DNA of 44,509 nucleotides from Actinomycetes bacterium (GTDB lineage Bacteria; Actinomycetota; Actinomycetes; Nanopelagicales; Nanopelagicaceae): NCBI GenBank assembly GCA_025355665.1, contig JANXZF010000025.1, positions 1 through 44,509 of the forward strand. The letters are read 5' to 3'. Below the pieces are notes generated by a model. It did not search any database. It saw nothing but the letters and a program-made list of their open reading frames with translations, and was not told the DNA's origin. This document shows, one piece after another, positions 41,898 through 44,507 of the stretch. Made by a program: the position numbers and the translations under genes. The first letter of the stretch is position 1; each line of letters begins with the position of its first letter.

Positions 41898-44507
41898 ATG
41901 ACGAGCGTAACCCCGCGCCGAGTTAGACCATCTTTCGGGCTGCCAAAATTCAAAAAATCATTGGTTTTCGCTGTTATTTTGGCGAGTTCTATTTTGCCGT
42001 TATCAACCGCTGCCGCCGCTCAAACTCAGGGACTCTTTGGCAGCCTTGGACTCACTGGCCCCGTTGAATCTGGCAAATCAACCGCCGGTTTCACATCGGG
42101 CCTGAAACCTCCTATTTCGATCAATCCGACAACGGGCACTGTCAATACGCCCACAACCTCACCCTCCAAAGGGCCTCTGACTTCTCCGAGTACACCTTCG
42201 ACTGGAAAGACGGGCACCACAGGTAAGACCACCACGACTGTCCCGGTGACACCTGGTGGTGGAGCTGCTGCAATCACGAACGCTGCAGCAGGGGTTACGG
42301 GTGGAGCTGTGACGGTTGGTGCAAGTGGACCTCAAGGTGAACGTGGGCTTCAAGGTTTGGTTGGTCCTGCGGGGCCGCAAGGAGAAAAAGGCGCTACGGG
42401 CGCTGCCGGAGCTCAAGGTATACAAGGGGTTCAGGGTATTCAAGGAATTCAAGGACCAGCTGGCCCTCAAGGTATTCAAGGTCAAACTGGTGCAACTGGC
42501 GCCGCTGGTGCACAAGGCGTTGCCGGAGCTACGGGTGCTGCTGGTCCTGCAGGTCCTGCTGGTCCTGCCGGTCCTCAAGGCGTTGCGGGAGTCGGGACGG
42601 CCGGTCCACAAGGCCCCGCTGGTCCTGCCGGTCCCGCGGGGGCTAGCGCCTCTGCTGGCTCTCAAGGTCCTGCCGGTCCTCAAGGCCCCGCTGGTCCTGC
42701 CGGGCCTGCCGGTCCCGCTGGTCCCGCTGGTCAAGCCGGTGGCGGTTCAGGCTCAGGCACTGGGCCAACTGGTCCTGCTGGAGCTGATGGCGCTGCCGGA
42801 GCACAAGGTCCTGCCGGTGCTGCTGGTGCTGCTGGTGCTGCTGGTGCTGCCGGTCCTCAAGGTCCCGCTGGTCCCGCCGGTGGCCCTGCCGGTCCAGCAG
42901 GTGCAGCTGGTGCAGCTGGTGCCCAGGGCCCTGCCGGTCCTGCCGGTCCTGCCGGTCCTGCCGGTCCTGCCGGTCCTACAGGTGCTGCCAGCAACGTTGT
43001 CGGTCCAACTGGTCCGACCGGTCTAACTGGTCCCGCTGGACCAACTGGTGCAACAGGTGCTGCCAGCAACGTTGTCGGTCCAATTGGTCCGACCGGTCTA
43101 ACTGGTCCCGCTGGACCTACAGGTGCCGCCAGCAACGTTGCTGGTCCAACTGGCCCACAAGGCCCAACTGGTTTAACTGGTCCGGCTGGCCCAACAGGCC
43201 CCGCAGGAATTAACGGGACCAACGGAGTTACTGGTGCTCAAGGTTCCATAGGTCTAACTGGTCCGGCTGGCCCAACAGGTGCCACCGGGGCCGCTAGCAA
43301 CGTTGCCGGCCCAACGGGGGCCCAAGGACCAATCGGTCTGACAGGTGCTACGGGTGCGGCGAGCAACGTGGCAGGTCCAACTGGTTCTCAAGGTCCAATC
43401 GGATTAACCGGTGCTACGGGAGCCACGGGTGCGGCGAGCAACGTGGCAGGCCCAACTGGTTCTCAAGGTCCACAAGGCCCAACTGGTTTAACTGGCCCTG
43501 CTGGTCCAACCGGTCCCGCAGGAGCTAACGGGACCAACGGCGTTACTGGTGCTCAAGGCTCAATAGGTCTAACTGGTCCCGCTGGCCCAACGGGTGCCAC
43601 CGGGGCCGCTAGCAACGTTGCCGGTGCAACAGGTGCCACCGGTGCGACCGGAAACAACGGAACCAACGGAACTAACGGGGCCACCGGCGCCACAGGTGGA
43701 ACAGGTACCACCGGCTCGGTCGGTGCCACAGGTGCCCAGGGCCCAACTGGCTCGACTGGACCAACAGGTGCTACCGGTGCAACCGGAACCAACGGAACTA
43801 ACGGGGCCACCGGCGCCACAGGTGCCAGCGGAACTAACGGTGCCACCGGCGCCACAGGTGGAACGGGCACCACCGGCTCGGTCGGTGCCACAGGTGCCCA
43901 GGGTCCAACTGGCTCGACTGGACCAACAGGTGCTACCGGTGCAACCGGAACCAACGGTGCCACTGGTGCGACTGGCCCGACAGGTTTGACTGGCCCGACA
44001 GGTTCTACTGGACCGACTGGCGCTACCGGTACGACCGGTACGACCGGTGCTGCCGGACCGACTGGTGCAACCGGTACGACCGGTTCTACTGGTCCAACAG
44101 GTTTGACTGGTCCGACCGGTTCTACCGGACCGACTGGCGCAACTGGTCCGACCGGTGCGACAGGACCTACTGGCCTGACCGGACCAACCGGTGCGACTGG
44201 AGCTACTGGTGCGACTGGTCTAAAGGGAGCCACTGGAGACGCAGCTGCCTTTAGCAGCACCGGCACGAGTTTGAGTACAGCGACGCACGTTGTTATTGGT
44301 AGTAATGCGGCAAGCGCAAATGTTGCACTGAGCGGTGCGGCGGTCTTTAGTTCGGTTTCAAGTTACGTCTGCTATGGGAACGACTCTTCGAAGTCAACAG
44401 GATTGGTTAACTTCTTGAACGCCAGCGGTACATCATCGGTCATAAAAGTATCGGGCACTGGTACGGCGACAAGTGACACGATTGCTTGGACTTGCGTTGG
44501 TTACTAA
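41898..44507 (+). CDS. Large secreted collagen-like protein (Gly-X-Y repeats)
   Basis: An 869-residue exported protein. Signal peptide ~1-41, with basic segment [12 protein letters not shown], core [14 protein letters not shown] and likely cleavage at AAAA-QTQG. A Thr/Ser/Pro-rich stalk with polythreonine (~60-125) leads into a collagen-like region of ~650 residues. Its first third is [14 protein letters not shown] rich and its rest is GPTGATG/GTNG rich. Seven copies of ASNV(V/A)G interrupt the Gly triplets. A C-terminal ~85-residue globular domain with two cysteines (SSYVCYGND and AWTCVGY) closes it and probably trimerises it. No LPXTG or other anchor. The frame is complete in the window. 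Bacterial collagens form triple-helical surface or extracellular fibres; a role in adhesion or aggregation is inference. Confidence 0.9.
42984..43625 (+). repeat. Array of seven AASNV(V/A)G interruptions and long internal repeats in the collagen-like gene
   Basis: A unit encoding AASNV(V/A)G occurs seven times, each breaking the Gly-X-Y phase. A longer block encoding [19 protein letters not shown] recurs 315 bases apart (GTTACTGG at 43227 and 43542). Confidence 0.85.
43711..43964 (+). repeat. Near-identical 162-base tandem repeat
   Basis: The segment beginning CCGGCTCGGTCGGTGCCACA at 43711 recurs at 43873, an offset of 162 bases or 18 Gly-X-Y triplets; it encodes [19 protein letters not shown] and what follows. 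The few differences are mostly at third positions, indicating a recent duplication. Confidence 0.85.

Follow-up and report, generated by a model that had tools for sequence, protein, structure and literature searches.

To whom does a collagen-like fibre belong when its gene lies among the cellular genes of a small-genome actinobacterium and its tip resembles that of a phage tail fibre? Most of the collagen-like proteins that have been studied well in bacteria belong to pathogens or spore formers. The window analysed here (44,509 nucleotides) is an entire contig of a draft genome of the Nanopelagicaceae (138 contigs, 1.87 Mb; hereafter G000), and the stop codon of its last gene lies 2 bases from the contig end. 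In this small-genome actinobacterium a gene for a collagen-like fibre has been kept, and its head appears to have been replaced wholesale between species; two of the five heads group with proteins of phage tails. The gene was compared with its relatives in five genomes of the same genus (G002, G006, G014, G015 and G017), and the features on which the argument depends are collected in Table 1.

Table 1 Features of the window and the evidence for each
Feature	Coordinates	Strand	Evidence and remarks
Response regulator and histidine kinase	37803..39868	+	Pfam; synteny; conserved upstream pair
Methyltransferase	39865..41049	+	PF13679, E 1.2e-36; synteny; conserved upstream neighbour
LuxR-type regulator-like gene	41062..41784	+	Immediately upstream; GerE weak, 20 of 23.5 bits, below the Pfam cut-off
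Palindrome GGGGGCTGTCCCCC	41809..41822	+	89 bases 5' of the start codon; possible operator
Signal peptide, residues 1-41	41898..42020	+	Judged by eye: basic n-region, cleavage region
Thr/Ser/Pro-rich N-terminal part, conserved motif at its end	42021..42326	+	Alignment with four same-genus genomes
Collagen-like Gly-X-Y region, residues 144-782	42327..44243	+	Pfam PF01391 and triplet parse
Tip domain, residues 783-869 (about 87 residues), Cys825 and Cys866	44244..44504	+	PHROG 32740, hhalign, alignment A7

A collagen-like protein at the end of a contig

The open reading frame at 41898-44507 (+) encodes 869 residues followed by a stop codon. An alternative in-frame ATG at 41805 would extend the protein to 900 residues, but the start at 41898 is preferred because a purine-rich AAGGGAG lies directly 5' of it and because of the signal peptide; the corresponding position is taken by AAAGGAG in G015 and by AAGGAG in G017. 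The putative Sec signal peptide was called by eye. In four same-genus relatives the aligned N-terminus likewise opens with a basic stretch followed by a hydrophobic one.

The collagen region belongs to the Pfam Collagen family (PF01391, E 2.9e-76, 251.6 bits against a cut-off of 27.2) and contains 600 residues in triplets, arranged in 12 runs with 11 interruptions, seven of which read SNVV or SNVA. Its composition shifts over five successive stretches, proline passing through 14, 17, 12, 6 and 10% and threonine through 4, 9, 16, 28 and 33%; in residues 576-782, threonine occupies 54 of the 69 Y positions. Threonines at Y positions could be glycosylated, as in BclA. The LPXTG wall anchor that characterises Scl1 and Scl2 is absent from the 869 residues, and the scores against the models of Scl2/SclB (NF038329, 309.2 bits against a cut-off of 325), Scl1/SclA (NF038330, 239.3 against 400) and Lcl (NF046116, 229.5 against 500) all fall below threshold. 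The stalk also scores against many phage tail-fibre PHROGs. The sequence-only reading had described the gene as an 869-residue secreted collagen-like protein of an actinobacterium, with an N-terminal threonine-rich stretch, a stalk changing in composition along its length, no wall anchor and a C-terminal domain with two cysteines, and our analysis agrees on all these points: the signal peptide is recognisable by eye, and C825 and C866 are the sole cysteines of the protein. Its figure of about 650 Gly-X-Y residues was slightly high, although the region itself is there.

A tip shared with phage tail fibres

The sequence-only reading had also suggested searching with the C-terminal domain alone, and this search led to a phage tail-fibre tip family: among the PHROGs, only 32740 (tail fiber protein) matched the tip, with an E-value of 1e-8 over profile positions 440-520 of 521. 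The other direct searches with the tip were negative. It had no match in Pfam or NCBIfam and no credible relative among PDB sequences (best E 0.82, a picornavirus VP1), its profile retrieved only Fc receptors from the PDB (E 2.5), tblastn found nothing in phages and plasmids, and neither the single sequence nor the alignment A1 found anything in viral contigs. A bridge was provided by G140, a genome from another family of the same class, in which a 390-residue collagen-like ORF carries the tip. The G140 tip matched Burkholderia phage BgManors32 and the BgManors32 tip in turn matched other phages and viral contigs, so that the relatives reached comprise the Burkholderia phages BgManors32, Bcep1 and BcepNY3 in addition to viral contigs; plasmids gave no match. 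The bridging match had an E-value of only 1. The link was confirmed by hhalign, in which two collagen-borne tips aligned with five tips from phages or viral contigs (98.2%, E 3.4e-14). The 12-row alignment (A7) has 11 invariant columns, both cysteines are conserved in all 12 rows, and every member matches PHROG 32740. Three of the 12 also match K1-lyase_C, a tailspike domain (PF24146, best E 3.4e-5), which the window tip does not. Judging from these profile comparisons, the C-terminal domain is a homologue of phage tail-fibre tips.

The distribution of the tip was examined in cellular genomes. Among 394 genomes of the class, alignment A1 found only G000 and G140. A further collagen-like ORF with the tip, cut by the contig edge, is found in a contig of the actinobacterial MAG fen_544 (L141). 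Weak matches (E up to 0.1) occur in 56 of the 394 class genomes and in 89 of 296 genomes of the family, that of the window included. A screen for Gly-X-Y ORFs over 56 loci (L013-L068) from among these matches left only G140, and in 15 loci that were inspected the weak matches looked like chance or unrelated proteins, again except for G140. None of the 84 candidates from a genome-contig scan with the tip alignment was confirmed, which leaves the distribution of the tip among cellular genomes poorly sampled. As a side observation, Burkholderia-type tail fibres and tip proteins of viral contigs (L070, L072-L082, L085, L086, L089 and L090) have starts that by eye resemble signal peptides, and the Bcep1 record carries the annotation of a possible signal peptide.

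The AlphaFold model of the tip is weak (pLDDT 64). Foldseek found no significant match for it in the PDB (E of 0.15 or more) or in BFVD (E of 0.023 or more), and VIA found none either (Z of 6.5 or less). Fibres of phages or pyocins and tailspikes fill the top five Foldseek rows from the PDB (AP22 gp53, R2 pyocin, Pam1), all below significance; VIA placed the top domains of orbivirus VP7 first, with the Sf6 tailspike and Helix agglutinin alike, all within the same Z limit. The tailspike and pyocin-fibre ends among these nearest structures are trimers. By analogy, the tip itself is probably trimeric, which would fit its assignment to the phage tail-fibre tip family.

A conserved locus with dissimilar assigned heads

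The genes that flank the collagen gene in the window are cellular (SecA, AdoHcyase, phosphomannomutase, aminotransferase and kinases among them). The window contains 45 listed ORFs of at least 150 residues, many of them overlapping; among 23 distinct flanking ORFs compared with Pfam (17), PHROGs (10) or both (4), none belongs to a phage structural family, and the three PHROG matches correspond to two families of unknown function and one membrane protein filed under morons. Phage morphogenesis genes, which would be expected around a virion tail fibre, were not found among the upstream ORFs compared, and the contig carries no downstream side.

The response regulator, the histidine kinase and the methyltransferase precede the collagen gene in G000, G006, G015, G017 and G002, the G017 contig beginning inside the kinase. 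The gene immediately 5' is the methyltransferase in G015 and G002 and the LuxR-like gene in G006 and G017; the latter thus occupies the same position in three of the five genomes, that of the window included, and has no match in G015 or G002 at E≤1e-5. Between this gene and the collagen gene lies the palindrome of Table 1. GGGG-N4-6-CCCC sites at -92 in G015 and G017 resemble GGGGGCTGTCCCCC, three of the five related genes having such a site, and no similar palindrome occurs upstream of the gene in G006 and G002. The pattern was found in one of 15 other collagen genes examined, at -140, and 11 times in 265 kb of background, a count that includes overlapping starts of these same sites. With one mismatch allowed, GGGGGNNNNCCCCC was found once in the window against 1.1 expected, which is no rarer than chance. 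The LuxR-type regulator encoded next to it may possibly bind this palindrome. A search for a sigma-70-like promoter in 41700-42000 was negative, as was one for inverted repeats in 44200-44509.

A profile of the N-terminal part matched eight of the 296 family genomes at E≤0.001. Only five of them, including that of the window, match strongly (E≤7e-42), and the three weak matches (E 1e-5 to 4e-4) were not counted. Compared directly with the N-terminal part of the window, those of the other four gave E-values of 5e-15 (G015), 8e-15 (G017), 7e-6 (G002) and 2e-3 (G006). The contig ends at or inside the collagen gene in all five genomes, so such genes are easily missed, and the link between N-terminal part and head outside the window genome rests on neighbouring genes. 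The missing halves were sought among contig ends with 5'-open collagen ORFs, which designated contigs C2 of G015, C79 of G017, C55 of G014 and C63 of G002. The first two have two downstream genes in common (81% and 76% identical). Two copies of a small membrane protein lie downstream in each of G017, G014 and G002, and none downstream of the G015 head. No N-terminal part was found for G014 and no head for G006, which leaves four genomes common to both sets. From these neighbours we infer that this locus is also where the heads found in the other genomes belong, four of the five having been assigned across contig breaks. The weakest assignment is that of G002, which depends on the two membrane-protein genes only; contig C13 of that genome also has an open collagen end, which might equally be the partner of the head.

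The five heads (G000, G015, G017, G014 and G002) are mutually dissimilar, the best E-value being 0.96. Two viral-contig proteins are related to the G017 head, with 49% and 52% identity. One is located downstream of a tape-measure-like and upstream of an endolysin-like protein (L166); the other (L167) is a collagen-like protein too and has endolysin and terminase genes nearby. Single-sequence scans, which reach close relatives only, gave no viral relative for the G015 and G014 heads. Against PHROGs, the G015, G017 and G014 heads matched nothing and the G002 head produced only weak matches of unknown function. By these searches, phage kin are thus found for two of the five heads, namely the window tip and that of G017.

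The other side of the break in the window genome is likely represented by contig C18, with a gap between the two. C18 starts inside a membrane protein of which 82 residues are left, followed by a LytR_cpsA_psr gene, a 121-residue ORF and an aromatic-acid-exporter-like gene. We regard it as the likely continuation of the window because this is also the order in contig C55 of G014, and because the two downstream genes of G015 have counterparts in it, namely the exporter (64% identity) and an acetyltransferase further along (60%).

Possible natures of the fibre

Several scenarios may explain these data, and the one that we consider more likely than not is that of a homotrimeric, Sec-exported collagen stalk, chromosomally encoded and ending in a phage-type tip, which would serve for binding at the cell surface and whose head could be exchanged. 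A chromosomally encoded chain would be exported by the Sec pathway through its signal peptide, and three chains would associate through the tip, perhaps also through the conserved N-terminal motif, the tip capping the trimer and setting its register. In a collagen triple helix each residue contributes 0.286 nm, and the stalk would measure about 170 nm if fully triple-helical. The head would face outward and bind some ligand. Because the protein has neither LPXTG nor an N-terminal cysteine for a lipid anchor, it could be retained by an uncleaved signal segment, by a partner or neighbouring membrane protein, or not at all. Evolution would keep the N-terminal part and the upstream neighbours at the locus and swap the C-terminal head. 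A surface fibre is therefore a plausible description of the protein, of which trimerisation, triple helix, retention at the surface and ligand binding are all inferred features. A more far-reaching proposal, which we hold as tentative, is that in this genus the fixed chromosomal locus is an exchange site at which phage-type tail-fibre tips were captured on a cell-owned, signal-peptide-bearing collagen stalk and swapped between species. These small-genome aquatic bacteria would then possess a surface fibre that changes rapidly and helps them to adhere or to fend off phages. If heads do change between species as they appear to, the locus would offer a set of different natural heads borne by the same type of stalk, and would connect the receptor-binding domains of phages with the diversity of host surfaces in a way that can be tested.

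The role of the head could be more modest if the tip were a trimerisation cap only, the protein a structural coat or matrix fibre without specific ligand and the exchange of heads a neutral replacement of caps. Phage tail-fibre tips usually contact a receptor, and the complete replacement of the head next to a kept N-terminal part would, at the level of sequence, fit selection on binding better, for which reasons we find this rather unlikely, even though the heads have no mutual similarity, so no sign of a common ligand, and a collagen-like fibre of E. coli prophages has a C-terminal domain demonstrated to act as a trimerisation module (PMC3368898). The fibre could also be a decoy or a block, its phage-type tip masking the receptor of phages with the same tip or competing for it. 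The occurrence of such tips in both a cell protein and phage fibres speaks in its favour, as does the variable region of Nanopelagicales phages, which holds tail-fibre and collagen-like genes (PMC10202952), but the phage relatives detected belong to Burkholderia phages and unassigned viral contigs and not to known phages of this host, which makes a decoy improbable.

Two further explanations remain. Were the gene the tail fibre of a prophage or phage remnant, the tail-fibre family of the tip and the PHROG scores of the stalk would be expected, and the downstream side that could reveal a prophage lies beyond the contig end; nevertheless, the signal peptide recognised by eye, the cellular genes on the upstream side, with no phage structural family among the ORFs compared, and the conservation of this upstream neighbourhood across species of the genus make this very improbable. 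The least credible explanation in our view is an assembly artefact joining stalk and tip at the contig end. It is suggested by the position of the stop codon and by the contigs of four related genomes, which end in the gene too, but the longest exact repeat inside the gene is 53 bases, so that a wrong join within repeats is possible and not indicated, the GC content of the tip equals that of the window (0.51 in both), and G140 and L141 display the same stalk-tip layout.

Comparison with known collagen-like and phage proteins

In Bacillota, Bacillus BclA and Pasteuria Pcl combine a collagen-like stalk with an outward C-terminal domain and may be likened to the window protein by layout; an adhesin role has reportedly been proposed for Pasteuria Pcl7. 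Bcep1 gp51 and related Burkholderia tail fibres (PHROG 32740) end, like the window protein, in a tip of some 80 residues that is homologous to its own and has both cysteines. The phage proteins that were translated in full nevertheless lack a collagen stalk, which the window protein has, and Bcep1 gp51 and the BgManors32 protein are encoded in tail gene clusters, whereas the window gene stands among cellular genes.

The E. coli prophage proteins EPclA-D combine a collagen stalk with a phage-fibre C-terminal domain, as the window protein does, the EPclA domain (PfC) trimerising (PMC3368898). They are prophage genes with Phage_fiber_C (PF06820), whereas the window protein has a signal peptide, cellular flanks and a tip without Pfam match. 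Streptococcal Scl1 and Scl2 resemble the window protein in having a collagen stalk and a variable non-collagenous domain, but have that domain at the N-terminus and a wall anchor at the C-terminus (PMC8968730), while in the window protein the variable part is C-terminal and LPXTG is missing. In the open-licence literature, we recognised no report of head exchange in Nanopelagicales collagen-like proteins and found no cell-owned secreted collagen with a phage-type head that is swapped at one fixed locus. Collagen stalks that end in a phage-fibre domain were already known from E. coli prophages, and the cell-owned exchange locus would be the new part.

Membrane proteins and other collagen-like genes

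The small membrane proteins found next to several collagen genes belong to a family of about 205-250 residues, partly in tandem, with one long hydrophobic helix followed by a conserved domain (alignment A5; members in L117, L122, L125, L009, L110, L111, L071 and L134-L141). Compared with Pfam, the family has nothing over the cut-off. The model of a neighbouring membrane protein (pLDDT 81.7) has no Foldseek match at E≤0.001 and a best VIA Z of 6.6, and no fold was assigned. The family was found in four of the 296 genomes searched (17 matches). A genome-contig scan with three membrane proteins returned 10 loci, of which seven are independent once those holding A5 rows (L132, L137 and L138) are set aside and L133 is taken as contig L116; in six of these seven the gene lies directly beside a collagen ORF, and in the seventh about 5 kb away. 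A role as dedicated collagen partner was considered and dropped, since no collagen ORF occurs in the stretches inspected for seven of the nine copies in the genome of the window (C74, C128, C3) and for four of the six copies in G015.

Of 60 related genomes, 53 have collagen matches at E≤0.001 and 46 have matches over the Pfam cut-off, so that a collagen-like gene is in itself nothing rare in this group. At least two more such genes, whose ends differ, are present in the genome of the window, one on contig C122, where it is cut by the edge, and one on C82, and an identical 400-residue collagen ORF is found in the family genome G234 and in contig L134 (Candidatus Planktophila sp.). Within the genus, a second type of collagen gene (L009, which is contig C122, L110 and L111) ends in CVTPGGNVTWG.CH...TTYY.LIKS and is followed by the membrane protein; in G014 and G018 it is preceded by genes that by eye resemble rlmN. 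The 307-residue neighbour of the C122 gene had been considered signal-peptidase-like, an idea dropped because Pfam gives it no family. The assemblies of the genus repeatedly break inside collagen-like genes (L092-L095, and the contig ends in L112-L125), even the three-contig assembly of G015, so that the number and length of these genes are probably underestimated.

Finally, two LuxR-family regulators, in G006 (L126:3873-4844, -) and G015 (L130:4067-5047, +), have a collagen-like Gly-X-Y stretch just before the helix-turn-helix. They match PF01391 (E 1e-10 and 5e-14, respectively) and PF00196 (E 2e-7 and 4e-7), and no signal peptide is evident in them by eye. For a regulator that is probably cytoplasmic, a linker of collagen type seems very unusual.
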